From contig VDLU01000041.1 in assembly GCA_006247105.1 (NCBI GenBank), positions 1 through 13,503 of the forward strand: DNA of 13,503 bases. Direction: 5' to 3'. Below are positions 73-13,503 of this stretch, in pieces. The DNA is from Giardia muris. Taxonomy: Eukaryota > Fornicata > Diplomonadida > Hexamitidae. The notes below the pieces were generated by a model. That model was not told where the DNA came from. It did not search any database and saw only the letters and a list, made by a program, of their open reading frames with translations. The position numbers and the translations under genes are program-made. Position 1 is the first letter of the stretch. The number at the start of each line of letters is the position of its first letter.

Positions 73-1502
73 CATCCGGTTGATCCTGCCGGAGTACTAC
101 GCTACCCCCAAGGACAAAAGCCATGCAAGCGGACACGAGGTATGAAGTGGCGGACGGCTCGGTACAACGGTACGAGTCTGACCGGGGGTGAAGGCTAGAC
201 GGATACCGCTGGCAACCCAGCGCCAAGACGAGTGCTCAAGAGCGGGGAAGGAAAGCACGCGATGGAGCGAATGCCCGGATGAGGTTCCGAGGTATTACCT
301 AGTCGGTAGAGTAGTGGTCTACGGAGGGGATGATGCCTGGCGGAGGATCAGGGTTTGACTCCGGAGAACGGGCCTGAGAGACGGCCCGTACATCCAAGGA
401 CGGCAGCAGGCGCGGAACTTGCCCAATGCGTGAAGGCGTGAGGCAGCAACGGGGGATCCCATGAAATGGGAAGACTGGGGGGTAGATGACCCCAGCACAA
501 GTCGAGGGAAAGGTCTGGTGCCAGCAGCCGCGGTAATTCCAGCTCGGCAGGCGTCGTACGGCGCTGTTGCAGTTAAAACGTCCGGAGTCGAGACGTCCAG
601 CCGGGAGGAAAGAGGAGCGCTTAAGGCGGGAGTGAGTACGAGAAAGCCCGGGACGGACATGAAGGTGAATGGGTAAGGGCATGTGTATTGGTGGGGGACG
701 GGTGAAATAGGATGATCCGACCAAGACAGACAAAGGCGTAGGCACTTGCCAAGACCATATCAGTCGAACCAGGACGAAGCCCGGGGGCGAGAAGGCGATT
801 AGACACCACCGTATTCCCGGGCGTAAACGATGCCACCGAGAGACTGGCCAGGTCGTCAGGATCGAAGGGAAACCGATCAGGGTACGGGCTCTGGGGGGAG
901 TATGGCCGCAAGGCTGGAACTTGAAGGCATTGACGGAGGGGTACCACCAGACGTGGAGTCTGCGGCTCAATTTGACTCAACGCGAACACCTTACCAGGCC
1001 CAGACGTACGGAGGATCGACGGTTGAGAGGACCTTCGTGATCGTACGAGTGGTGGTGCATGGCCGTTCACAGCCCGTGGCTTGAGCCGTCTGCTTGACTG
1101 CGACAACGAGCGAGACCCTAACCTGGATGGGACCGCCAATGGTGAATTGGAGGAAGGTGGGGCGATAACAGGTCTGTGATGCCCTTAGACGCCCTGGGCT
1201 GCACGCGTACTACACTGTGGGGATGAAACCACGTCGAGTTGTGAAGCTTGATGAGATCAAACCCCCACGTGGTTGGGATCGTGGACTGGAACGTCCTCGT
1301 GAACCTGGAATGTCTAGTAGGCGTAGGTCATCAATCTACGCCGGATACGTCCCTGCCCCTTGTACACACCGCCCGTCGCTCCTACCGACTGGGTCTTCTG
1401 GCGAGCTCCTGGGAGGGATGAACCGAACAGGGACGAACCGCGAGGCTTGGAGGAAGGAGAAGTCGTAACAAGGTATCCGTAGGTGAACCTGCGGATGGAT
1501 CC
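73..1502 (+). rRNA. Small-subunit (16S-like/18S) ribosomal RNA, diplomonad type
   Basis: This is the RNA of the small ribosomal subunit, which decodes mRNA. The universal 5' end CATCCGGTTGATCCTGCCGG begins at 73. The 530 loop (GTGCCAGCAGCCGCGGTAAT) is at about 519-538, the GTAAACGATGCCACC segment near 822, and CAACGAGCGAGACCCT near 1103. The decoding-site helix (TTGTACACACCGCCCGTCGC) is at about 1360-1379, and the 3' end GTAGGTGAACCTGCGGATGG leads into ATCC at 1502. The length of about 1,430 nt is far below the usual eukaryotic 1.8 kb and matches Giardia (about 1.45 kb). Phrases such as CCCCAAGGACAAAAGCCATG and GCGGAACTTGCCCAATGCG are also Giardia-like. GC content is moderate, unlike the very GC-rich G. 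intestinalis gene. The 3' end could be off by a few bases. No insertion or break is seen. Confidence 0.97.
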
Positions 1503-1537
1503 ATCGAGAGGGAAGGTACGAGGATGAAGGCAATGAG
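1503..1537 (+). other. Internal transcribed spacer 1
   Basis: The spacer between the SSU 3' end and the start of the 5.8S-like sequence is only about 35 nt, which is extremely compact and typical of Giardia. The right boundary is uncertain by several bases because the 5.8S start is inferred from its distance to the conserved CCTTGG motif. Confidence 0.7.
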
Positions 1538-1670
1538 ATGACGCGACCCGGTGGATGCCTTGGCTCGGGGGACGATGAAGGACGTGGCTGACGACGATAC
1601 TCGATGTGGTCCAAGCACGTGACATCGATCTTCGAATGGATCATCGGGGTGGTGGGGTGATCTACGAACT
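1538..1670 (+). rRNA. 5.8S ribosomal RNA
   Basis: This corresponds to the 5' end of bacterial 23S rRNA and pairs with the start of the LSU RNA in the large subunit. Conserved elements appear in order: CGGTGGATGCCTTGGCTC (about 1549-1566), GACGATGAAGGACGTGGC (about 1571-1588), and GTGACATCGATCTTCGAATG (about 1619-1638). The last is the counterpart of the yeast GTGAATCATCGAATCTTTGAA. The estimated length of about 130 nt is shorter than the usual 158 nt, consistent with a reduced diplomonad 5.8S. Both ends are estimates, probably within 10 nt. Confidence 0.85.
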
Positions 1671-1709
1671 GGGTTGTTCGAGGGGTTGAACGATGGGGAA
1701 TGAGATGAG
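1671..1709 (+). other. Internal transcribed spacer 2
   Basis: A very short spacer (about 40 nt) separates 5.8S from LSU. The start of the LSU is placed about 33 nt before GGAACTTAAGCATATCA by analogy with yeast, so the right boundary may shift by 10-20 nt. No other feature is seen. Confidence 0.55.
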
Positions 1710-3421
1710 GATCCCCCCCACTCCGATGAAGATGACGGGTGGAACTTAAGCATATCAGTACGCCCAGGAGAAGACACCAACCGGGATTCCTTGATTAGCG
1801 GCGAGCGATCCAGGAGTAGTCCGACCTCGAAGCGATGAGCGTTGTGAGGACTGGGGGGATGTCCTAAACCCGAAGATGGGTTGAAACCCACACCAAGGAG
1901 GGTGCCAGTCCCGTAGGATGGACACAACCCAACGACGAGTACCTCTGCTTGAGAGTGTAGAGGGAAGAGGAGGTGGTACCCTTCTAGGCTAAATACCGCC
2001 CCGAGACCGATAGAGGACCAAGTAGTGCGAACGAAAGGTGAGAAGGATCCGACCCAGGCACGTCAAAGACCCTGAACCCGGAGGCGACTCCCGACCTGTC
2101 GATGATCGATTGGTCGGCCCGTCTCGAAACACGGACCGAGGAGTTAGGACCGATCGCAGTCATGTGGCAAAGGGAAGTCAAGACTTCAAGGGGCCCCTTA
2201 CAAGGGCAGAGCGATCGGTCCTAGACCCGAAAGGTGGTGATCTACACTTGACCAGGGTGAAGCCAGACGAAAGCCTGGTGGAGGCCCATCCCGGTGCTGA
2301 CGTGCAAATCGCTCGGTCGAGTTGAGTGTAGGGGCGAAAGACTCATCGAACCACCTGGTAGCTGGTTACCTCCGAAATGTCTCCCAGGATAGCCGACATC
2401 ATGAACAGCTGCCCTAGGTAAGGCCACGATCGGTGGGAGTAGGGAGGTCACTCCTTATCCACCCTCGAACCATGAACAAGGGTGGAGCGGGGCCAACTTG
2501 TGTGGGCCCCTCAACAGTGTTGATGTCGAGTGGGCCTCTCCTGGTAAGCAGGACGGGCAAGACGGGATGAACCGACAGTCGGGGAAGGTGTGGAAGTGTA
2601 TGCTCGATCAAACGGTGTCCGTCGATCGTGACAGCTGGAAGGTGGCCTTAACAGTAGGAAGCCTCTAAGGAGTGTGTAACAACCCACCAGCCGAATCGAG
2701 GGGCCGGAAAATGGAACACGCCGAAGCATACGATCGGAACCCGACCGAGATGTGTCTCGGGTAGGAGGTCGTCATGATCGAGTCGAAGCCATGGGGTGAC
2801 ACGTGGTGGATCGAGTCATGATTGCTGATCTCGGTAGTAGTAGCCATTACTCCATCTGGAGGCCTGACGTGGAGATGGGTTCCGTATCCCTGTCGATCAG
2901 ATACGGGTGACACGATCCTAAGTCCGATGGTGTACGCCGTACCATGGGGTCATCCTCACAGGACGATAGGGCTGACCGGTTAACATCCCGGTGGTATGAT
3001 GGGGTCTTGGTGACATCCTTTCACAACGGTACATGAACGAAGACATGGTGGGAGTCATCCCGTCCTACCCCAGTCCCCCATGGCCAGTAGTACTTCAGGT
3101 CGTGCATGGCCATGATGATCACATGTCCTTCGGTCATCCATGAAACCCGTTGTGTCCCCCCCATCCTGATCGTACCACAACCGCAACAGGACTCCAAGGT
3201 GATCAGCCTCTAGGCGGGAGAGACCATGACTCAGGGAAGTCGGCAAACTAGCTCCGTAACTCGGGAGAAGGAGTGGCTCTGATCGATCAGAACCGGCACG
3301 GACCGAGGATCCCGACTGTCTACTAACAACATAGCGTCGTGCCAGTCGTCATGGATGCGTACACGACGTGATTTCTGCCCAGTGCCATGACCGTCACCAT
3401 GAAGAGGTTCATCCAAGCCCT

Positions 3422-3473
<52 letters not shown>

Positions 3474-3912
3474 GGGTAATTTCCGACGTGCATGAATGGA
3501 TCAACGAGGATCCCACTGTCCCAAGTCATGCCTCCGTGAACCTACAGACCCGGGAACGGGCGGGTGTTGGTCGGCGGGGCAAGAAGACCCTTTTGAGCTT
3601 GACTCCAATCCGATCCTGGGGGATGGATCATCGGTGCAGCATACAGGGAGGCCGCTTCCATGAGATACCCTGACGTTGTTCACCATCCACTCACCGACTT
3701 ACATCGGCACACGTCGGATGGGGAGTTTGGCTGGGCGGCGCGCCTGCTAGATCACACCGCAGGCGTCCTATGGTAAGCTCAGTGAGGTCGGAAACCTCAC
3801 GTGGAGCATAAGGGCATAAGCTTACTTGACTAGTACCCCTGTCCCGGTACTTGCCGTGAAAGCGTGGCCTAACGATCCTTCAACCGCTCCGGTAATCCGA
3901 GCGTGGAGGTGA

Positions 3913-3947
<35 letters not shown>

Positions 3948-3957
3948 GCCAAGCGCC

Positions 3958-4001
<44 letters not shown>

Positions 4002-4051
4002 CCGTCCGCATGCATCGGTGCGGAAGCGTCGGATTGTTCACCCGTCTAAGG

Positions 4052-4095
<44 letters not shown>

Positions 4096-4345
4096 TCCTA
4101 CCGACCATCTCCATGCGTCCAGTACGTCGGGTCAGTACGAGAGGAACACCGTCGCGAGCCTCCGATCTCCCGGTTGTTTGACTTGACAGTGCCGGTCTGT
4201 CGCGCTCGGGGGACTAGCACTGAACGCCTCTAAGTGTCCATCCCACCTACTCGCATGGGTTGAGGGGCTTCCCCTCGATTCGCCCGGGTTGACGACCCTT
4301 TTCTCCGACCTACTGTACGCGTGGAGCTTCTTGCGACCGCCTGAG
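1710..4345 (+). rRNA. Large-subunit (23S-like/28S) ribosomal RNA
   Basis: This RNA holds the peptidyl-transferase centre. Landmarks in order are GAACTTAAGCATATCAGTAC (1742), GGGTGAAGCCAGACGAAAGC and GACGTGCAAATCGCTCGGTC (about 2255-2319), and GGGGCGAAAGACTCATCGAA (about 2332). The GTPase-centre loop GTGTAACAACCCACCAGCCG is near 2674. TAACTATGACTCTCTTAAGG (about 3438) and GGCAAGAAGACCCTTTTGAG (about 3578) follow. The peptidyl-transferase segment TTACCACAGGGATAACTGGC starts at 3921 and the sarcin-ricin loop AGTACGAGAGGAAC is at 4134-4147. CTGAACGCCTCTAAGTG near 4218 marks the final domain. A stretch of roughly 2760-3240 is poorly conserved and is probably a lineage-specific variable domain. The 3' end is not visible as a motif. 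I place it before the G-rich repeats, giving about 2.6 kb, close to Giardia LSU length. Confidence 0.93.
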
Positions 4346-4700
4346 GTTTGGTTCGGGTTGGCATTCCCCCCGAGCCCCCGAGGGTCGAAGACCTGAGGGG
4401 TGAGGGAAGGCCGGAACAACCCCCCGAGGGTCGTGAGACCCGAAGGGGGGGCCGGAAGCGAGGCCCCCCGCCCCGAGGAAGACCTGAGGGGGTGAGGGCA
4501 TCCCCGTCATACCAGGGGGGTGGGAAGGGCTCCCTCCGGTCGTGGGACCAGGGGGTGAGGCCCCCGGTCGTAAGGGGGCATCCCCGAGGGTGAGACTTGA
4601 GGCGCGAGGTCATACCAGGGGGGTGAGGGCCCCAAGGGGGGGCGTCCCCGCCCGGATCGACCTGAAGCGAGATCAACCCCCGTGGGTCGAAGGCCCGGGT
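4346..4700 (+). repeat. GC-rich spacer with imperfect tandem and inverted repeats
   Basis: Immediately after the LSU comes a stretch dominated by CCCCGAGGG, GACCTGAGGGG and GGGGTGAGGG motifs. The phrase GTCATACCAGGGGGGTG occurs at 4506 and again at 4609 (period about 103 bp), and GGGCATCCCCG recurs near 4496 and 4577. Phrases such as CCCCGAGGGTCGTGAGACCC are self-complementary and could form hairpins that process or terminate pre-rRNA. That role is inference from position only. Confidence 0.7.
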
Positions 4701-5868
4701 ACGGGGCCTACAGAAGGATACCAGATTTGGAACGGTTACAGTGGATTTTGGATCCGGACTCGAGATCAAAAGACCGGAGGGCGAGGGCGGGTCCGCGGTC
4801 CCTCGAACGGGGGTCGTACAGGGGTCCCCCGTGGCCCACGGCCGTCCCCCTGGGCACGGAACGGATCGGGGTCCATGCCCTGGCCCGGGAGTCCACATGG
4901 GTCCTCACGGGGGCCTTCCTCCAGGGTCATTCGAGGTGTCCCCGGGGTCCCCTGGGTCCATGGGGCCCTTGAAGTCCTTCAAGATGAACGGGGACGGGGG
5001 GCCCGGTCCCTCACGGGGGGCCCTCACACGGGGGACTCATGGCTCCATCGGGGACTGGGGTCGACCCCCCGCCCTCCTTCGAGGGGGCCGGTCATCGGAC
5101 CATGTGGTCATATGGATGGCCTTCCGGGGGTCACGGTCCCCTCGGGGTGGGTCATCGAATGGGATGGGGGACTATCTTCCCCCTTCCATAGCCCGTGGGG
5201 TCCCCTCGAGTCCTCCATGAACGGGGTCACATGGGCCTTCAGAGGGTCTCCTGGGCCCGGGCCGAACAGGGGATTCCCGTGGGGTCCGACTCCCCTTGAA
5301 TCTCTGGGGGTCTCGAGCGGGGACCCAGATCCACGCCCCACAGGTCCATGGACCTTCATGGGTGGGGGGGTGGTCCATCATACGGATGGGGGTTCCTTCG
5401 GTCGGGGGTCCGTCCGGTCCTCACGGGACAGGATCCAGGGGGCCTTCACGTCCCCTCATACGGGCCACATGGACCGGGTCATCAGGGGGATCCGGGTCAT
5501 CATATGGGGCCCGGGCCTCATATCCATGGACGGGACTCCCCACGGGGCGGGCCCCCTTCATCGATCGGGTCCCTCACGGATCTTCAGAGGGTGAAATCGG
5601 ACACGGCATGGGACTTTCAGGCCCCACGGGTCATCGGACGGACGATCGAACGGGCCCCCGAGGGCACGAGTAGAGGTAGTGGGTCCATGGGGCCCGGACG
5701 ACGCTCATCATTCCAGACGGAGGGAACCCTTCCCGCTTTCTCCTTCATTCAAGTTAGGACCGGAGGGGCGCCGAAGCGACGGGCCCCTCAGAGGGGGACC
5801 GAAGGGGCGCCCGAAGGGCGAGGCCCTGTGGGCACCGGTCACTGACTGGGCGTGTCTGCGTCCCCGGG
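4701..5868. other. G-rich intergenic spacer, no gene recognised
   Basis: More than 1.1 kb of spacer has many G runs on the + strand and recurring short words such as GGGTCCATGGGG, TCATATGG and GGGGTCC. The longest open frames here are rich in Gly, Pro, Arg and Ser, lack recognisable domains, and occur on both strands, so I do not call them genes. A self-complementary cluster at about 5763-5840 (GGGGCGCC, GGGCCCCT, GGGGCGCCCGAAGGGCG) could form local hairpins. Confidence 0.6.
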
Positions 5869-6275
5869 CGGCCCGCGTCTCCGTGTCCCTCGCATCTCTC
5901 GCATCTCCGCGTCTCTCATCACCTCTCATCACTTATTATCGTCCCTTATCGTGTCTCGTGTCCCTTATCGTTCTTATCATCTCTTATCGTCCCCGTCATC
6001 TCTCATCGCTCTCATCGCGTCCCCAGCCCCCCACTCCTCTCGTGGATCCCCTGGCCCCTCTCATGCCCCCCCATGGATCCTCATGCCCTCTCATGCCATC
6101 TCATGGCCCCCATGCCCCCTGACTCCTCTTGAATCACCTCGTGGCCCCCCCTTCAGGCCTCCCCCTTCCTCCCTCAGCCCTCCCCACGCCTGCACACACT
6201 CCCCCCATCCCTCTACCACGTCGGGGAGCCCTCTCCACATCCGTCTGACTCGTCCCCCCAACCCCCAGGTCTCCA
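5869..6275. repeat. Pyrimidine-rich, microsatellite-like tract
   Basis: The + strand becomes abruptly C/T-rich. From about 5893 to 6023 it is built from degenerate CTTATCGTC and CTCATCGC words, and from about 6050 to 6125 from CTCATGCCC words. More C-rich sequence continues to about 6275. The open frame through it encodes mostly Pro, Ser and Leu and is a composition effect. Such a tract after an rRNA unit could act in termination, replication-fork arrest or recombination, but nothing here proves it. Confidence 0.7.
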
Positions 6276-6281
6276 GATCCT

Positions 6282-6313
6282 CCTGGATTAATATTTACTA
6301 ATGAAAATCCAGG
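6282..6313. promoter_or_regulatory. AT-rich hairpin containing a minus-strand AGTAAAT
   Basis: A perfect 8-bp inverted repeat, CCTGGATT (6282-6289) and AATCCAGG (6306-6313), encloses a 16-nt AT-rich loop in otherwise very GC-rich DNA. The loop reads AGTAAAT on the minus strand (6293-6299), an exact match to the Giardia polyadenylation consensus AGTRAAY. It lies about 280 bp beyond the stop of the decayed minus-strand gene at 6592. It could be a terminator or poly(A) element, or an AT-rich initiator of the kind used by Giardia promoters. Confidence 0.4.
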
Positions 6314-6591
6314 GGAATCCCGGACAATAGAGGGTTCGATCCATCATCTCGTCCCATGGGACTCCCGTCCCCCCTGCACCCTTACGACGGTGTTACGTGA
6401 CTGTGCACGCAGTGGGAGGGCCGTGGGGGTCGTGGGGATGGCAGGGGAGTTGGATGGGGTCATCCTTGGGGACGGGTCGAGAGGGATGGAGGGGCCACCT
6501 AAGGGCCTTGTGGGGGCCTATGAGCGATCTTTGGGGGGTCGGGGATCTTTGTACAGAGATGCCGTCACATCACCTCCAAGCCTCCCTGGGG
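6314..6591. other. Spacer without a recognised gene
   Basis: This G-rich stretch has a small palindromic core (ACTGTGCACGCAGT near 6401). An open + strand frame runs through it from a GTG codon at 6390, but its composition is biased and it shows no domain. I see no RNA gene. Confidence 0.5.
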
Positions 6592-7740
6592 TTACTTGTG
6601 CTCGACCCACACGTAGCTCCCGTCCATGCACGTGGATGACCACTCCTCATGCCCCGCCCTTGACAGGCCCCAATGGTTCATCTCCCCAAAGATGAAGGAG
6701 GAAGAGGCGGGGATCCAGCCACAACCAATCTCCCTGACGAATGTCGATGTGGGCTCCCGCACTACTATGGACAGGTGCCAGTCGAGGAGAACCCGTCCAA
6801 AAAAGAGCAAGGCCTCGACACGACCGGTTAAGCACCCCGAACCCGCCCCCTGTCCTCAAAGGGCCGCTTTCCCCTTGACAAGCCCCCCGACGCTTGAGGG
6901 ACGCAAAAGATCGGCATCCTCATCAACCATGATGATTCCACCACCAGGCCACCCCCTGCCTGCCAATCACCCTATATGCGTTCACATCAAAGTGGATGCC
7001 GTTGGGTTCGACGACAATTCCATCCGGCCTGCGACGACGAGGCTTGATGATGACGATGCGATCGTCCATCCAGTGACGCACGATCGGATCGTTGATGAGC
7101 GCTTTGCTCACGGAGACCTTCGAGTACAGTCCTCTTCGAGGTCATACACCACGTCCAGCATCTGGTCGTTGGTCGACGTGGATCGTACCCATAGGATGCC
7201 CTACGGATACTGGGCACTCCCGCACCAGCCGTTCACAGGGCACGTGTAGGCCATGGGCTCTCTTGGCTGCCTCCCAGAAGGGGATGAGATTGCCCGGTCA
7301 AAGATCATCCGGACCTCGGGGGCCCTCGGATACGAGTGTCCTCATTTGTGCAGCAGGGGTGGTTGTGCTTTGCCGTCCCCCGTGGCCTCCCAGTGAACGT
7401 GCTCATCGATGCTCATTTTCATCCAGGCCGGGCCTTCCGACCCTGCATGTACGAAGAACTGGAGATGGAGGTACGATCCCGACCACGTACCTCTCCTTGC
7501 CCGGATGGACGAGCTCAAGGAGCCAGTGCTCAGCATCCCAGCCCTCATCGTCGAGCTGCCTCGTGCCGATCCAGTTCCTCCCCCAAAGACCCCAACAACA
7601 GAACTGAGCCTGCAGCCGGGTAACACCATACATGGCCAGGCCTGCATCCCAGGAAGGAGGTGGGTGACACATGTGAAGCCAGGCCTCCAGTCCAAGACCC
7701 CGAGCCCATGCTTAGGCTTCAACATGCAGGTCCAGATCAA
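6592..7740 (-). pseudogene. Decayed protein-coding gene, unknown function
   Basis: On the minus strand, stretches that read like ordinary globular protein follow one another but are broken by stops and shifts. In order they include NWIGTRQLDDEGWDAEHWLL (about 7570-7510), FVHAGSEGPAWMKMSIDEHV (another frame, about 7455-7395), NLIPFWEAAKRAHGLHVP (from 7291), DQMLDVVYDLEED (near 7170), and SKALINDPIVRHWMDDRIVI (from about 7108). The last runs on to 6925. MVDEDADLLRPSSVGG follows from 6930, and the final segment ends in GSYVWVEHK with TAA at 6592-6594. Most pieces lie in just two frames, with TGA stops at 7403, about 7304, 7142, 6923 and about 6856. The stop sits inside AGTAACC, one base off AGTRAAY. 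The protein would be Trp-rich and mixed alpha/beta. I recognise no family. The N-terminus is not defined. Indel errors in the assembly could also produce this pattern. Confidence 0.55.
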
Positions 7741-8450
7741 GATGACCCGAAGGACCCCAAGTGGTCGAAGAGGACATCAGAAGGGTCTGCATGGTATCGG
7801 AAGACCATTGGGAGCCCCCGATGATACTTCGAGGGGTCATCACATCCTCCCATCGGCCTTCACTCACGACTTCATCCCCACTTGACCATCAGCTGTCCCA
7901 GCACACGCATCCGGCCTCCTCGGGCCATAGGGGTTGAAGACCTCGAACACCCCCCAAGACCCAGAAGGACCCCAGGACAGGAGATCCGACGACCATCAAT
8001 CCAAAAAACTGCCATCCATCCAGCCCTCTCCATTCACGTTCGTACCGACTCCTGACACCTGTACCCGTCCCCGTACATGGACCATCGTCATTGACATCAG
8101 GACGGATATAGGGTCGTCCCCCCCCATGACCCCAAGAGATCTCGAGAACCCAATGGAGGCCCCAAGGGTCCAGAAGAGGCATGAAGGCATGGACCAAGAG
8201 GTCATCACCTCCTTATCAGCATCACTCACGGCTTCATCCCATTCCACCCAGGACCAGAGGACTCGATGATGTCCAGCAATCAGACGATCCAAAAAACCAC
8301 CATTCGTCCTCCATGCCAACCGAGCCCCCAGCCCCCATTCGCCCGGTCCTCGGCCCTATCCGCCCTTATATTGGCCCCTAACACCTGTATCCATCCATGC
8401 ACAGGGGCCATCGGGGGGTATTACGACATGACCATCCATCCCGACCCCGA
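7741..8450. repeat. Degenerate ~380-bp duplication with minus-strand coding remnants
   Basis: Two related units can be aligned by eye. GGGGTCATCACATCCTCCCA at about 7834 matches GAGGTCATCACCTCCTTATC at about 8199. CACTCACGACTTCATCCC (about 7861) matches CACTCACGGCTTCATCCC (about 8223). CCATCAATCCAAAAAACTGCC (about 7993) matches the ATCCAAAAAACCACC region (about 8288). ACACCTGTACCCGTCCCCG (about 8056) matches ACACCTGTATCCATCC (about 8381). On the minus strand, 7996-8319 is open and reads like protein in places (GVMGGDDPISVLMSMTMVHV, EWDEAVSDADKEVM). It may be another remnant, or the repeated N-terminal part of the decayed gene ending at 6592. No domain is recognised. The right end grades into the C/A-rich satellite. 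Confidence 0.5.
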
Positions 8451-10966
8451 GGACAGGAGGACTCCACTCAAGCCTTCTACCGGCAGCAAGGCCAACCACC
8501 ACCCCCGACCTCATGGACAGAGGACCGGAGACCCCCGAAGCCAGGGCCCGCAAGGCCGACAACCCCACCATGCCAAGATGATCCATCCTTCACTCAACAC
8601 CCCCTGCATCCGACCCCATCAAGCCATCAAGGGCACGTATCCCGTCCAAGGCCCCAACCCCAGTCTCCAAGTCCCCAAAGCCTAAGAGCCCAGCCCAAAG
8701 CTCACAAAGAGGCCCCAGAGACCCCCAGCACAGGAAGAGACCCAAGGTCACAAGCACCTAATCCCCTGAAGCCCAAGCCCCCGAAGACAACAAAGGCCCC
8801 CGGCCCAGGCCCAAAGCCTCAAGAGACCCGAAGAGCTCAGCCCAAAGACCCAAACCTCCAAGACCTCAAGAGCCCCAAAGACCCCCAAGGTCCGATGCAG
8901 GAGGTCCCAAGGCCAGAGGACGAGGACCCAGCCTTCAAGGCCCAAGAGCTCAAGATGACTCGGCTCCCGCCCAAAGAGTCCCGAAGGTCCACAACTCCCA
9001 AGATCCCAATGCCCCAATGTAGAAGGACCCAAGGCCCAAAGCTCCAAAGACCCACTGCAGGAGGATCCAAGGACCAAGAAGCCCAAACATCCAAGCCCGA
9101 AGACCCCGGCCTCCAAGTCCAAGAGCTCAAGGTCCAAACCTCCAAACCCCCCCAGGAGATTCCCAAAACCCTCAAGTCTCCGAAGACAACAAAGAGGCCC
9201 CAAGAAGCCCCCAGCACAAGATCCAAGAGGTCGAAGAGCTCAAGGCCCAAAGACCCCGAGGCCAAGATGACTCCAGCTCCCAGACCCAAAGAGTCCCAAG
9301 GCCCCCCAAGGCCCACTGCAGGAGGACCCAAGCCACAAGCCCTCAGGACCCCGGATTCCGAAGACCCCCTCAAGCCCCAGTCTCCAAGTCTAAGACCCCA
9401 AACCCCCAAGGTCCAAGAAGACCTACCCCAAGACCTCGAAGAGCCAAGAAGCCAAGGCCTCAACCCCGAAGCCTCAAGACCCCAAGGTCAAAGACCCCCA
9501 ACCTTCAATACCCCAAGGCCGCAAGCCCCCCAAGGTCCCGACCTTCAATACCCCAAGTCCCCCAAGCCCGAGGCCTCATTCCAAACCCTCCAAGTCCCCT
9601 AAGACCCCAGACCCAAGCTCCGAGCATCTCAAGCCTCAACCCCGAAGACCCCAAGGTCCAAGCCCCCAGGTCTCCAACCCGAGGGCCCAAACCCCCAAAG
9701 AGGACCAAAGACCTACTGCAGGAGGACCCAAGCCTGAGAAGCCCCCAACACAAGACCCCAAGTCCCAAGGCCTCCCGAGACCCCAGCCTTCAATGCCCCA
9801 AGGCCCAAGCCCAAGGAGCCCGAAGGCCCACAACCCCAAGAGGTCTAAGACCCCAACACAAGAGCTCAAGACCCCTAGGGCCCGCAACCCCCAATGCCCC
9901 AGGACCTCGAAGAGACCCCAAGGACCCCATGCAGAAGACTCAAGGCCCAAGACCCCAAGGGGACCAAGGACCCAAGAGGCCCAACACAAGAGCCCCAAAC
10001 CTCCAAGGCTCGAGACCCCTAAGAGCTCAAGAGACCTCCAAGACCCTCAAGAGGATCCCGCAACCCAAGACCCCAGTGCAGGAGGACCCAGACCTCCAAG
10101 CCCCCCCCAAAGACCCCAAATCCCCAAGAGCCAAGCCCAAGAGACCCCCAACTCCAAGGAGCCCAAGGCCCAGCATTCAATGCCCCAAGCCCGAAGCCCC
10201 AAGAAGCCAAGCTCAAGTCCAAGACCCCCAAACCCCAACGCAAGAGCCCAAGGCCCTAAGGCCCCGAGACCCCAAACCTCCAAGGGGACCGAGGGCCCAA
10301 AGACCCCTAAGAAGACCCCCAAGGCCCTCAAGAAGCCCAAGAGCTCAAAGACCCATGGCCCCAAGACCTTGAAGAGGACCCAAGGCCCAAGTCCAAGGAG
10401 CCCAGCCTTCAATGCCCCAAGGACCCCAAAGCCAAGACCCCAAGAGCCCCAAGCCCCCATGCCTGAAGGTCCAAGGTCCCGAAGACCCCAAGGCCCTAAC
10501 ACAAGAGCCCCCCAAGGTCCAAGACCCTAAGAGACCCCAGACCCAAGGGCCAGCCCAAAGGTCAAGGGCCCAAAGCCCCCCAAGCCCAAGAGCTTCAAGC
10601 CCCCAGACCCCGAAGACCCCTAAGTCCAAGCCCCCAAGCTCACAAGTCCGAAGGCCTCAAGAGACCCCCAACACAAGAGGCTCCAAGGCCCCAAGCCCGA
10701 AGGCCAAAGCCAAGGCCTCAATGCAGGAAGACCCAAGCCCAAGAGTCCCCGAAGAGTCCAAGAGCCCAAGCCCCCAAGGTCCAAGGCTCCAGCCTTCAAT
10801 GCCCAAGACCCCTAAGACCCCTAATCCCCAAGAGCTCAAGGGCCGGCCCAAGCCCTCGAGAGTCCAAGAGACCCCGAAGAGGTCAGCCCAAGCCCCCCAG
10901 AGACCCCAAGTCCCAAGCGAGGGCCCAAGCCTTCAAGGTCCAAGACCCAAGGCCCAAAAAGGGGTC
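8451..10966. repeat. C/A-rich satellite array, block 1
   Basis: About 2.5 kb consists of endlessly varied CCCAAG, GACCCC and CCTCAAGA words, with very little T on the + strand. Longer phrases recur: TGCAGGAGGACCCAAG-type at about 8896, 9056, 9314, 9717, 10077 and 10722, and CAGCCTTCAATGCCCCAAGG-type at about 9786, 10171 (variant), 10402 and 10790. Their spacing, often 360-390 bp with shorter intervals, suggests a decayed higher-order repeat. The minus strand is rich in GGG runs (CTTGGGG), so G-quadruplexes are possible. Long open frames on both strands (Pro/Lys/Ser-rich on +, Leu/Gly/Trp-rich on -) follow from the scarcity of stop trinucleotides. The start is gradual, becoming clear by about 8640. 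Confidence 0.85.
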
Positions 10967-11054
10967 AAATTTGAGGGGGAAAAGGGAACTAGCGGAGGCA
11001 CGGCGAAAGGAAGGGGGAAGTGCCCTCCGCACGGTCCGGGGCCCGGGACGGCCT
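10967..11054. other. Junction between satellite and zinc-finger gene island
   Basis: An abrupt change from C/A-rich satellite to purine-rich sequence (GGGTCAAATTTGAGGGGGAA) is followed by GTGCCCTCCGCAC, a 4-bp stem hairpin, and a GGGGCCCGGGAC run. It directly adjoins the first copy of the conserved 3' flank. No coding sequence and no clear target-site duplication with the right junction near 12498 are visible. Confidence 0.5.
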
Positions 11055-11168
11055 AGAGAGGCTGGGACGAGGCTCGTGAGCTACTCGTAAGGGCGGAGCG
11101 CCTCTCGAGCTCCAAGGCGACAGCGGGGTATGGGTGTGGACATGCGCGATACCCAGGCTCCTGGCCCG
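11055..11168 (-). repeat. Conserved 3' flank, copy 1 (after gene copy B)
   Basis: This 114-bp segment is about 95% identical by eye to 11688-11802, with only a few substitutions and single-base indels. It begins immediately after the stop codon of copy B on the minus strand and contains CTCGTGAGCTACTCGTAAGG on the + strand. It may be a shared 3' UTR or terminator, or the intergenic linker of a tandem gene unit. Confidence 0.9.
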
Positions 11169-11174
11169 TTTACT
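11168..11174 (-). terminator. Polyadenylation signal AGTAAAC overlapping the stop of copy B
   Basis: The minus strand reads AGTAAAC, an exact match to the Giardia AGTRAAY consensus, with the TAA stop codon of copy B (11172-11170) inside it. Such overlap of stop and poly(A) signal is usual in Giardia. Confidence 0.6.
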
Positions 11175-11655
11175 TGCTAAAGAGGAAGTCGAGGAGCTTG
11201 TCCTCCTCCTGATAGCGGGCGACCACGTCCATGGGTGGGTGAGGCCGCCGAACTTCATACCCTTGCCTGCGACCCAGACGAGGGAGTCCTCAGCCCTACA
11301 GAGGGACAGGGCCCTTCCTCTTTGAGAGGGAATAGCCAACTTTGAGGCAATCGCGCCGGTTGCAAGTGACCATGCCCTTACAGGCATAGCACTTGTACCC
11401 GCCTTCCTCGTTCCAGCGGGCGAAAGGTCGGAGGCATATGGGACACGTTCCATGCTGCTGAATTGCCTCCTCCTCGTAGAAGACGAGGGGCACGCAGGGG
11501 CTCTAAATGGTCCGCTTGGACCCCCGCGACATACGGACGAGTACGAGGGGCTCGTCCACGGCAGGCCCCTGTTTGAGGACAGGCTCGTCCTCCTCATCCT
11601 CCGAGAAGGAGGAGGAGGCCGTCGTGCCGCTGATCGAGATCTCCGACTCGCTCAT
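11170..11655 (-). pseudogene. Cysteine-rich zinc-finger protein, copy B (broken)
   Basis: The ATG at 11655 follows an A-rich leader (GAAAAAG), as expected of a Giardia start. The protein opens MSESEISISG, then a Ser-rich and acidic stretch (SEDEEDEP, about residues 17-24). An in-frame TAG at 11505-11503 (codon 51) is followed in the same frame by a zinc-finger core, about residues 69-105: CPICL, then GGYKCYACK, then VTCNRRDCLKVGYS. That gives C-x2-C-x14-C-x2-C-x5-C-x4-C. A TAG at 11298-11296 ends this stretch. A shift leads to LCRAEDSLVWVAGKG in another frame, then back to the first frame for DVVARYQEEDKLLDFLFSK and TAA at 11172-11170. By alignment with copy A, the lost piece should hold a last C-P-x-C pair near 11300, disrupted here by a one-base loss. 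The fold resembles treble-clef or RING-like zinc-binding modules, but the exact family and any ubiquitin-ligase role are unproven. No intact product seems possible unless the breaks are assembly indels. Confidence 0.65.
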
Positions 11656-11668
11656 CTTTTTCGTTTTG

Positions 11669-11686
11669 CGCCCACCCGGTCGGGCG
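11669..11686 (-). promoter_or_regulatory. Leader hairpin upstream of copy B
   Basis: CGCCC (11669-11673) and GGGCG (11682-11686) form a 5-bp stem around an 8-nt loop, 13 bp upstream of the ATG on the minus strand. A hairpin of the same geometry but different stem bases precedes copy A. The A-rich AAAACGAAAAAG between stem and ATG resembles the A/T-rich initiators of Giardia promoters. Confidence 0.5.
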
Positions 11687-11687
11687 G

Positions 11688-11802
11688 AGAGAGGCTGGGA
11701 CGAGGCTCGTGAGCTACTCGTAAGGGCGGAGCGCCTCTTGAAGCTCCAAGGCGACAGCGGGGTATGGGTGTGGACATGCGTGATACCAGGCTCCTGGCCC
11801 CG
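11688..11802 (-). repeat. Conserved 3' flank, copy 2 (after gene copy A)
   Basis: This is the partner of the segment at 11055-11168. It starts two bases after the TAA of copy A on the minus strand and ends against the leader hairpin of copy B. The spacer between the two genes is therefore almost entirely this element plus the leader, giving a compact head-to-tail tandem. Confidence 0.9.
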
Positions 11803-11809
11803 ATTTACG
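11803..11809 (-). terminator. Near-match polyadenylation signal CGTAAAT at the stop of copy A
   Basis: The minus strand reads CGTAAAT, one mismatch from AGTRAAY, again with the TAA stop codon (11807-11805) inside it. Confidence 0.4.
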
Positions 11810-12464
11810 CTTTGCGAGGTCGACGCTTGAGGGTCCTGCGCTTTCTGATCTCCCTCTCGACCTCGTCCCTCTGGAACCTCTCCTGGATCCTCTGGATGAT
11901 GGGTTGACCCCGGTGTGGTTGGCAGCGTGGACGCTCATGTCACCGCCTGCGTGCCAGTATACAGAGCCGGGTCCTGCAGAGGGGGCAGCGGTTCTCCCCC
12001 AGGAGGCATGGTACATGGTGTTGAGGCACATGATTCTGTTACATGTGAGCTCTTCCTACATGCGTACATCTGTAACCCCCGAAACGATTCCATTGGGCAA
12101 ATGTCGAGACATATAATGCAGGAGCCCTCCCTCCTGTGGATCTCGCGACGGGTCTTGGTTGAGCGCTTGTAGGGAGTTCGATGCGGTCGGCTTGTGCGGC
12201 CATCTCCCACGCGTCGGGGTAATTGCCCCACGTGCGTCCACGCCCACGTCGTTGGGCATGCGCTCGGCGCGGAGCTCGGTGAAGATGGGCTCACTGTCCT
12301 CCTCATCCTCCACGAGGGGTGTCGGGAGCCTCTTGGCGCAGGCTCGGGCGTGGAGGAGGTGAGGGGTGGGAGTGGAAGCCCCATTCGAAGCCCGTGAGCG
12401 GGGGAGGCGTGGAGGAGCTCGTGGTCGTGGTCGTGGAGCTGATCGAGATCTCCGACTCGCTCAT
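11805..12464 (-). pseudogene. Cysteine-rich zinc-finger protein, copy A (broken)
   Basis: The ATG at 12464 follows CTGAAAAAG and begins MSESEISISS, the same first nine residues as copy B, then Thr/Ser- and Pro-rich sequence. The starting frame hits TGA at 12305-12303. An acidic DEEDSEP stretch like that of copy B lies just beyond in another frame. Zinc-finger pieces follow in different frames: GSCIICLDIC, GGYRCTHV (with ACR in the next frame), LTCNRIMCLNTMYHASWG, and ENRCPLCRTRLCIL. They align base by base with copy B and together give the full set of eight cysteines ending in C-P-L-C. The C-terminus is a charged probable helix (PIIQRIQERFQRDEVEREIR) with a basic tail ending RPRKA and TAA at 11807-11805, in the frame of the ATG but after further stops (a TAA and a TGA). 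The basic tail could bind nucleic acid, which is inference. At 660 bp it is longer than copy B. Confidence 0.6.
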
Positions 12465-12477
12465 CTTTTTCAGTCTT

Positions 12478-12497
12478 CCGCTCGGTCGATTGAGCGG
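12478..12497 (-). promoter_or_regulatory. Leader hairpin upstream of copy A
   Basis: CCGCTC (12478-12483) and GAGCGG (12492-12497) form a perfect 6-bp stem with an 8-nt loop, 13 bp upstream of the ATG. Its position and geometry match the hairpin before copy B although the stem bases differ. The element ends where the satellite begins. Confidence 0.5.
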
Positions 12498-13503
12498 ATT
12501 GCAGCAGCCCCCACAGCCCCCCCAGCCCCCAAGTCCAAGCCCCCCCCCAAAGAGCCCGAAGAGCCCCAAGTCCAAAGGTCCAAAGGTCCAAGCCCTCAAG
12601 TCAAGACCCCGAAGAGGACCGAGGACCCAAGAGACCCTCAAGACCAAGAAGATCCAGCCCAAGGCCCAACGCAAGAGCCCAAGCCCTCAGGGCCCTAGAT
12701 CCCGAAGTCAAGAGACCCACAAGAGCCCAAGGCCAAGGAGCCCCTAAGGTCAAGAGGACCGAGAACCCCCAATGCAGGAGGACCCAGACCCAAGACCCAA
12801 GACCTCAGGCCAAAGCCCCCGAGACCCCATCTTTCAATGCCCTAAGTCCGAGAGCCCGAAGAGGCCGAAGAGCTCAGACCCCCAGAGACCCCAGACCCAA
12901 TGTAGGAGATCCAAGGGCCAAGACCCCAAGAAGTCAAGTCCCCCAAGGGCCAGCCTTCAAGTCCAAGGCCCCAGACCCAAGACCCTCTAAGGCCACAAGC
13001 CCTCAGGACCCCAAGACCCATGCAGGAGGACCGAGGACCCAAGGGCAGCCCAAGACCGAGGCCTCAGGCCAAGCCCACAAGTCTCCTTAAGACCCCAAAC
13101 CCAAAAGCCAAGCCCAAGGTCCCAATCCAAGCCCTCCAAAGAACCGGAGAGCCCCAAATCCCCAAAGCAAGACCTGAAGCCTCAAGAGACCCCCAGCTCA
13201 AAGGCCCGAAGCCACAAGCCAAGAACCTCCTGAGACCCCAATGCAAGAGCCCAAGACCCGAAGACCCAGGCCCAAAGACCTCAGTCTCCAAGACTCAAGG
13301 GCCAGCCCCAAGCTCAAGGCCAAAGGCCCAAGACCCCCAGCCCAAGAAGACCCACCCAAGAGCTCAAGGGCCCAAGCCCTCAAGGAGCTCAAGACCTCGA
13401 AAAGACCCCAGACCCCCAAGGTCCAAGGCTCCAGCCTTCAATGCCCCAAGGCCCACAAGGCCCCAACGCAAGAGCTCAAGAGCCCAAGCTCACAAGTCTC
13501 CAA
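12498..13503. repeat. C/A-rich satellite array, block 2
   Basis: This is the same sequence type as the block at 8451-10966: CCCAAG and GACCCC words, ATGCAGGAGGACC-type phrases at about 12773 and 13020, and CTTTCAATGCC or CAGCCTTCAATGCCCCAAGG phrases at about 12831 and 13432. It runs off the end of the window. No gene is seen. The open frames, including the Leu/Gly/Trp-rich ones on the minus strand, are composition effects. Confidence 0.85.

Follow-up and report, generated by a model that had tools for sequence, protein, structure and literature searches.

In yeast, Y' elements form multi-copy protein-coding blocks beside the telomeres and encode a helicase-like protein. Within the genus Giardia, a telomere gene unit (TGU) made up of cysteine-rich/VSP, kinase and ankyrin genes has been described beside the telomeres of Giardia duodenalis, in which the GilT and GilM telomeric retroposons also occupy a subterminal position at chromosome ends (PMC10999387). 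A further precedent comes from Encephalitozoon cuniculi, where the SUB region, an rDNA-bearing terminal block, is near-identical between several ends and gene families lie in the EXT repeats (PMC4704409). For Giardia muris, the genome paper reports that ten contigs end in TAGGG, that rDNA is adjacent in half of these, that pseudogenised surface antigens lie near chromosome ends, and that telomeric regions contain no retrotransposons; the genome is described as being without known mobile elements, and one of its gene families, ARP-2, combines ankyrin repeats with a zinc finger (PMC7641422).

We analyzed contig C23 of the G. muris assembly (9.74 Mb in 52 contigs), and refer to its full length of 13,503 nucleotides as the window. 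The first-pass annotation had placed in this Giardia DNA two tandem zinc-finger-like genes inside an rDNA-linked satellite, and our contig maps agree with that setting. The two genes, here called G1 and G2, form a real and orderly subtelomeric pair that is apparently undescribed; a layout of terminal blocks homogenised between chromosome ends is already known, and the novelty lies in the genes that it contains. We consider it fairly probable that they are a subtelomeric tandem pair homogenised between chromosome ends, whose own shared ends would reflect old conversion, regulatory constraint, or both.

Each of the described systems resembles this locus in some respects and departs from it in others. 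The TGU is likewise a conserved gene set beside telomeres in the same genus but consists of other families; here two RING/PHD-like zinc proteins lie in satellite on the telomere side of the rDNA, and Pfam searches of G1 and G2 gave no match to cysteine-rich/VSP, kinase or ankyrin families. GilT and GilM share the subterminal position, whereas no reverse transcriptase was found here (a weak negative, detailed below) and the telomeric regions of G. muris are reported to be free of retrotransposons. ARP-2 offers zinc-finger proteins from the same species; an ankyrin-like gene on contig C5 (its ankyrin part judged by eye) has a RING domain above the Pfam cut-off at C5:75426, while G1 and G2 have neither that domain nor an ankyrin match. 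The SUB region comes from an unrelated organism, and the available text of its description makes no mention of a zinc-protein pair between rDNA and telomere (PMC4704409). Finally, Y' elements are also multi-copy coding blocks next to telomeres, but neither G1 nor G2 matches a helicase. The available parts of the G. muris genome paper do not mention the pair (PMC7641422), and a full-text search of open-licence papers returned no mention of the two locus tags. Our maps thereby show how telomere-proximal blocks are arranged in a compact protist genome, and they identify an orphan gene pair for which we found no discussion in the literature searched.

Table 1. Features of the window, with the basis on which each was placed.
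Feature	Position	Strand	Basis and remarks
rDNA unit	73..4366	+	Rfam matches; eukaryotic rDNA; SSU 73-1505, 5.8S 1540-1687, LSU 1713-4366
Spacer	4700..8400		Contig map and genome search
C/A-rich degenerate satellite, rDNA side of the pair	8401..10980		Skews, k-mers and contig map
Shared 3' flank of G1	11055..11168	-	Repeat search; genome-wide, two matches on each of 14 contigs (28 in total)
G1, 193-aa frame	11081..11655	-	Cysteine core; frame broken here; the 193-aa frame terminates within the flank
Polyadenylation-signal-like AGTAAAC	11168..11174	-	Found in C22, placed in the window by eye
34-bp shared start of G1	11629..11662	-	AAAAAGATG and MSESEISIS
Shared 3' flank of G2	11688..11802	-	Ends ~30 bp upstream of the G1 start
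G2, 224 aa	11805..12464	-	Frame broken here; cysteine spacing as in G1
34-bp shared start of G2	12438..12471	-	Repeat search
Satellite of the same type, telomere side	12500..13503		Contig map

The features of the window are collected in Table 1. In the genome search, the first 244 bp of the spacer segment 6301-8400 also occurred in tandem rDNA units; the rest of this segment was present in 19 of the 40 matches scored (out of 73 candidates), and among these scored matches the 19 include all pair-bearing contigs but C14. The satellite is built of CCCAAG words with an AAG spacing of mostly 7-9 nt, and on the telomere side it continues past the end of the window, with ~6.5 kb separating G2 from the TAGGG repeats on other contigs. 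It is also poor in T on the plus strand (542 T of 8393 in C22), and the long open plus-strand frames in both of its stretches probably follow from base composition.

Used as a query, the flank identified two sites on each of 14 contigs, one belonging to G1 and one to G2. Every carrier contig (C8, C9, C14, C22, C24, C25, C31, C32, C51 and C52, plus C4, C23, C49 and C50) holds the pair once, arranged as flank-G1-flank-G2 within the C/A-rich satellite, on the stretch from rDNA to telomere. The first-pass annotation had named the existence of only two copies as a refuting outcome, which as worded does not describe the genome, and its suggestion of a cassette family does not fit either: there are two kinds only, in fixed order, along with diverged relics on C5. 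A many-member cassette family or array is ruled out by the single G1 and single G2 per carrier. When a TAGGG-run start was defined as four perfect repeats preceded by any base but G, 22 such places were found on ten contigs (the first ten carriers named above), which equals the number in the genome paper, and all ten carry the pair. This telomere placement had been absent from the earlier annotation. On eight mapped contigs the order was rDNA, spacer, satellite, flank-G1-flank-G2, satellite and, where reached, TAGGG; the maps of C24 and C51 cover part of these contigs, and the C31 sequence ends within the spacer without reaching an rRNA gene. In every contig that includes both, G1 and G2 are telomere-proximal to the rDNA, with ~6.5 kb left to the telomere in C22, and their transcription would point away from the telomere. 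On seven contigs the satellite passes into the TAGGG repeats through the same junction, ATCTCCATCCGG, with 0 mismatches (including C22:27637-27658); a search allowing up to three mismatches did not find this junction in the telomeric contigs C9, C14 and C25.

We then compared the sequence around the pair between ends, leaving out the low-quality contigs C8, C9, C14, C25 and C50. Relative to C22, the 6.5 kb from G2 to the telomere contained no substitutions in any of five comparisons (C24, C31, C32, C51 and C52), and the 5 kb inward of the G1 start contained 1-5 substitutions in all seven comparisons, including four in C4, two in C32 and five in C49. Near-identity of this kind can arise either from strong homogenisation between ends or from a few ends that were assembled repeatedly. 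The latter account, which would make the many copies largely an artefact of a small number of real ends being assembled again and again, errors included, appears rather unlikely to us. It draws on the differences within the pair, which are mostly gaps in several contigs and nearly all indels in C23, and on the 70 positions altered by the published correction step (PMC7641422); against it, the block is attached in C4, C32 and C49 to different chromosome flanks, which are only 92-96% alike in their longest aligned blocks. Given a reported heterozygosity of 0.016% (PMC7641422), these flanks indicate that at least three distinct ends hold the pair, and it is by these three junctions alone that repeated assembly of few ends is excluded. 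Near-identity across ends with different inner flanks is the pattern of a homogenised subtelomeric gene, and these three ends show it. Several of the ten telomeric contigs may be the same end assembled twice, and such redundancy could inflate the count of 14.

Both frames stop early in the window copy. Over six non-overlapping stretches totaling 11,118 bases, C23 differs from C22 by 2 substitutions, 129 deletions and 2 insertions; all 131 indels are of one or two bases, and 118 of them adjoin an identical base. The LSU rRNA of C23 has 27 single-base deletions relative to C22, and the SSU is identical. The frame breaks are therefore most likely assembly errors in the form of missing bases, as judged from this comparison, because decay would be expected to bring substitutions as well; the first-pass annotation had not recognised these breaks as errors. 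Gene predictions on low-quality rDNA contigs from this assembly cannot be relied on. Across the 14 copies, the 193-residue frame of G1 is open in eight, and the 224-residue frame of G2 is open and identical in seven; in C49, G2 is altered internally with its frame still open, and in C4 it is cut by the contig end. The G2 protein is identical to GMRT_25026, annotated as "hypothetical protein [Giardia muris]". For G1, a protein search yielded no NCBI entry and only an ENA record, which has the same 193-residue frame with five residue differences.

Composition-based measures give a mixed view of these frames. The reading frame has the highest GC3 in most G2 windows, as it does in G1 until roughly the last fifth; codon-usage log-odds are mixed for both genes, and several G2 windows (e.g., 241-331) fall below zero with another frame scoring higher. 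In the last part of G1, GC3 favors a frame other than the 193-residue reading, which runs into the flank, so G1 may be frameshifted in its last part. The AGTAAAC signal overlaps a TAA at 11170-11172 that belongs to a different frame from that reading. The recurrence of this tail in two records could represent either a real shared change or a shared error. That G1 and G2 are pseudogenes riding in the satellite, their open frames merely residual, we regard as unlikely: the broken window copies, the apparent frame change in the C-terminal part of G1 and the mixed codon-usage scores would fit such decay, but the window breaks are assembly deletions, G2 is open and identical in seven contigs, dN is lower than dS, and the ENA record retains the frame of G1. 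Taken together, the dN/dS estimate given below, the open frames, the GC3 signal and the ENA frame support coding function.

Both predicted proteins begin with MSESEISIS, continue into a Ser/Thr-rich stretch and then enter a core of eight cysteines with the spacing C-2-C-14-C-2-C-5-C-4-C-13-C-2-C, with G2 having an additional Cys157 inside the 13-residue gap. A canonical RING has eight zinc ligands in cross-brace order with a set consensus spacing. The core keeps the ligand order, with a C4-C5 gap of 5, a C5-C6 gap of 4 and no His among the eight ligands, which departs from that consensus. In Pfam, where RING was tested with PF13639/PF13920, G1 and G2 fell below every cut-off; RING_2 scores were 11.6 bits for G1, 11.0 for its ENA homologue, 7.7 for G2 and 13.4 for the altered C49 copy, against a cut-off of 27.3, and none of the 64 genome-wide RING_2 matches at E ≤ 0.01 was in G1 or G2. 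PHD fingers have C4HC3 ligands and a tryptophan before the seventh; the spacing here is nearer to PHD, but a Cys serves as fifth ligand and the tryptophan position holds another residue. Structure models had pLDDT values of 44 and 37 and were too poor to use. A Foldseek search with the poor G2 model returned nothing at E ≤ 0.001, with Cbl and KPC1 RING structures appearing only among chance-level matches, and in a PDB sequence search with G2 the best matches were arenavirus Z RING proteins at a non-significant E of 0.045. By ligand order, then, G1 and G2 are RING/PHD-like, and no test applied here places them in either family. The most likely role of the two putative proteins would be that of RING/PHD-like adaptors that bind zinc, or of ubiquitin-ligase-like factors. 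Homologues among 5.8 billion proteins were limited to two G. muris entries and one ENA protein, in a search that works by shared words and may miss distant relatives; viral contigs contained no homologues. Protein and Pfam searches thus found no described family matching the pair, in line with what the first-pass annotation had stated.

The first-pass annotation also drew attention to the contrast between the ends of the two genes and their bodies, and this contrast is largely upheld. The 34 bp across the start codon are exactly identical, and a 31-bp core of this segment has two matches in the window at up to three mismatches compared to none in 200 shuffles. The 3' flanks align in ungapped pieces of 67 nt (91% identity) and 46 nt (98%). 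In C22, whose sequence is cleaner, identity between the two genes reaches 97.5% across 122 columns of the flank and 100% at the start, with sharp boundaries. By comparison, identity in the 89-codon zinc core is 51% at the nucleotide level, and 39 of its 89 residues agree. The divergence of this core is real, whereas part of the body and length differences noted originally are errors of the broken window frames, as the comparison to C22 reveals. Two methods placed dN of the core at 0.64-0.65, dS at 1.37-1.75 and dN/dS at 0.37-0.47, values that rest on one pair with saturated synonymous sites. The proposal that the bodies are diversifying is not demonstrated: dN below dS in this one saturated pair suggests purifying rather than positive selection.

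Flank divergence of ~2.5%, set against a saturated core, raises the question of how the ends have stayed alike, with two answers to weigh: conversion of the ends at a time when the bodies had already diverged, or constraint on them. Two differences between the G1 and G2 flanks are informative here. The first is paralogue-specific in 14 of 14 copies; the second holds in 14 of 14 at G2 and 13 of 14 at G1, and in all 13 copies that could be scored at both (the window site at G1 also has a one-base deletion, and the G1 site of C9 was not matched by the pattern). These fixed differences argue against frequent current conversion within the pair, although 14 copies homogenised between ends are not independent tests. 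The suggested gene conversion of the ends accordingly survives only in part: the copies show no sign that G1 and G2 still convert each other, and older conversion is favored, short of proof.

A different explanation is that the ends are functional DNA or RNA, such as a promoter or initiator, a 3'-end element or a silencing element, kept alike by selection without conversion; we view this as possible but not likely. Giardia 3' ends are expected to be short, and the ~115-bp flank reaches far past the likely 3' end. It also has no excess RNA structure (z of -0.04 to 0.51 in four folds), and the sole Rfam match of the region is at chance level (19.2 bits, cut-off 76) and lies in G2 rather than the flank. 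Three of the five residue differences of the ENA homologue of G1 are adjacent and fall in the flank-encoded tail, which indicates that this stretch can change. At the start, all eight degenerate codons are identical, an outcome with a probability of ~0.003 at the core's codon-identity rate, a figure obtained for a stretch that was picked because it is identical; this, too, counts against the explanation. In its favor, the differences fixed in all scorable copies imply that conversion is infrequent now, and the shared start contains the A-rich initiator reported for G. muris genes (PMC7641422). With neither excess folding nor an Rfam match above cut-off, the flank was rejected as a candidate non-coding RNA, and neither gene contains a processing motif of small RNAs in Giardia.

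Stop-overlapping poly(A)-like signals, AGTAAAC and CGTAAAT, are present at the 3' ends of the genes. AGURAA is the polyadenylation signal in G. lamblia (PMC9014877), and the signal of G. muris genes usually overlaps the stop codon (PMC7641422). An A-rich start combined with a stop-overlapping signal fits the pattern of other genes in this species, and both elements also speak for constraint on the ends of G1 and G2. Inverted repeats were also observed ~10-30 bp upstream of both start codons (L017:4622-4661 and 5447-5486), with 7-bp arms at G2 (shuffle p of 0.004) and 5-bp arms at G1 (p of 0.2); we treat them as a lead only.

We favor, without proof, old conversion together with a constrained core promoter, within a homogenised subtelomeric pair. 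On this preferred reading, G1 and G2 would have originated by tandem duplication of one short protein gene plus its 3' flank. The pair sits in a terminal block running from rDNA through spacer and satellite to G1 and G2, transcribed away from the telomere, and on through satellite to the TAGGG telomere, and recombination or gene conversion between chromosome ends would keep the whole block nearly identical. The bodies have diverged to synonymous saturation while retaining the eight-cysteine zinc core; the likeness of the start (the A-rich initiator plus nine codons) and of the 3' flank would most simply reflect older conversion between neighbors, and perhaps regulatory constraint. The pair offers a natural test of how similarity is maintained at the ends of neighboring paralogues whose bodies grow apart. 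A bolder proposal is that every G. muris end bears two zinc-binding proteins that act on that same end, as a self-encoding telomere-cap block so far confined to this species. We think this very unlikely; if true, the proteins would act on rDNA, satellite or telomere chromatin, or on recombination.

Relatives of the zinc core were found on contig C5, at 77.2 kb and 648.5 kb, each lacking one ligand and one interrupted by a stop. The C5 core gave an E of 8e-5 with G2 and 6e-5 in the reverse search, and only 0.005 with the ENA homologue of G1. Both loci lie in a segmental duplication (C5:75.9-78.6 kb and C5:649.9-647.2 kb; L041-L046) that is 98% identical over 2.7 kb. Satellite words are in excess there, at 1.2-1.9e-3 on the same relative strand, compared with a mean of 4.1e-4 and a maximum of 9.4e-4 in a 10-kb C4 control and 7.7e-3 in the satellite itself. 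Zinc relics beside a satellite remnant suggest that the association of zinc gene and satellite probably predates the present pair. The duplication also adjoins ankyrin-RING-like genes.

These decayed relatives and the satellite remnant inside C5, together with the presence of the pair on all ten TAGGG-run contigs and its embedding in satellite, would also be compatible with G1 and G2 being remnants of a selfish subtelomeric element that spread with chromosome ends, with a lifestyle like that of Y' or telomeric retroposons. This origin seems quite unlikely, as Pfam identified no polymerase, helicase, transposase or reverse transcriptase match in G1 or G2, RVT_1 had no match genome-wide (a weak negative, its positives coming only from three prokaryotic control genomes), and no retrotransposons are reported in telomeric regions (PMC7641422).

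The order on C5 is zinc relic, satellite remnant, a second zinc-like fragment judged by eye, and a segment 97% identical to sequence adjoining rDNA. The C5 loci may be fossil chromosome ends, a reading that this order makes attractive, but the rDNA-side segment is a dispersed repeat and its adjacency may be due to chance. No Pfam match was obtained for this repeat in the two reading frames scanned. The copy at L043:1-1643 (C5:645100-646742) is accompanied by 22 further near-full copies at 96-98% identity, and the 37 matches, partial ones included, are located inside C1-C5 and beside rDNA.
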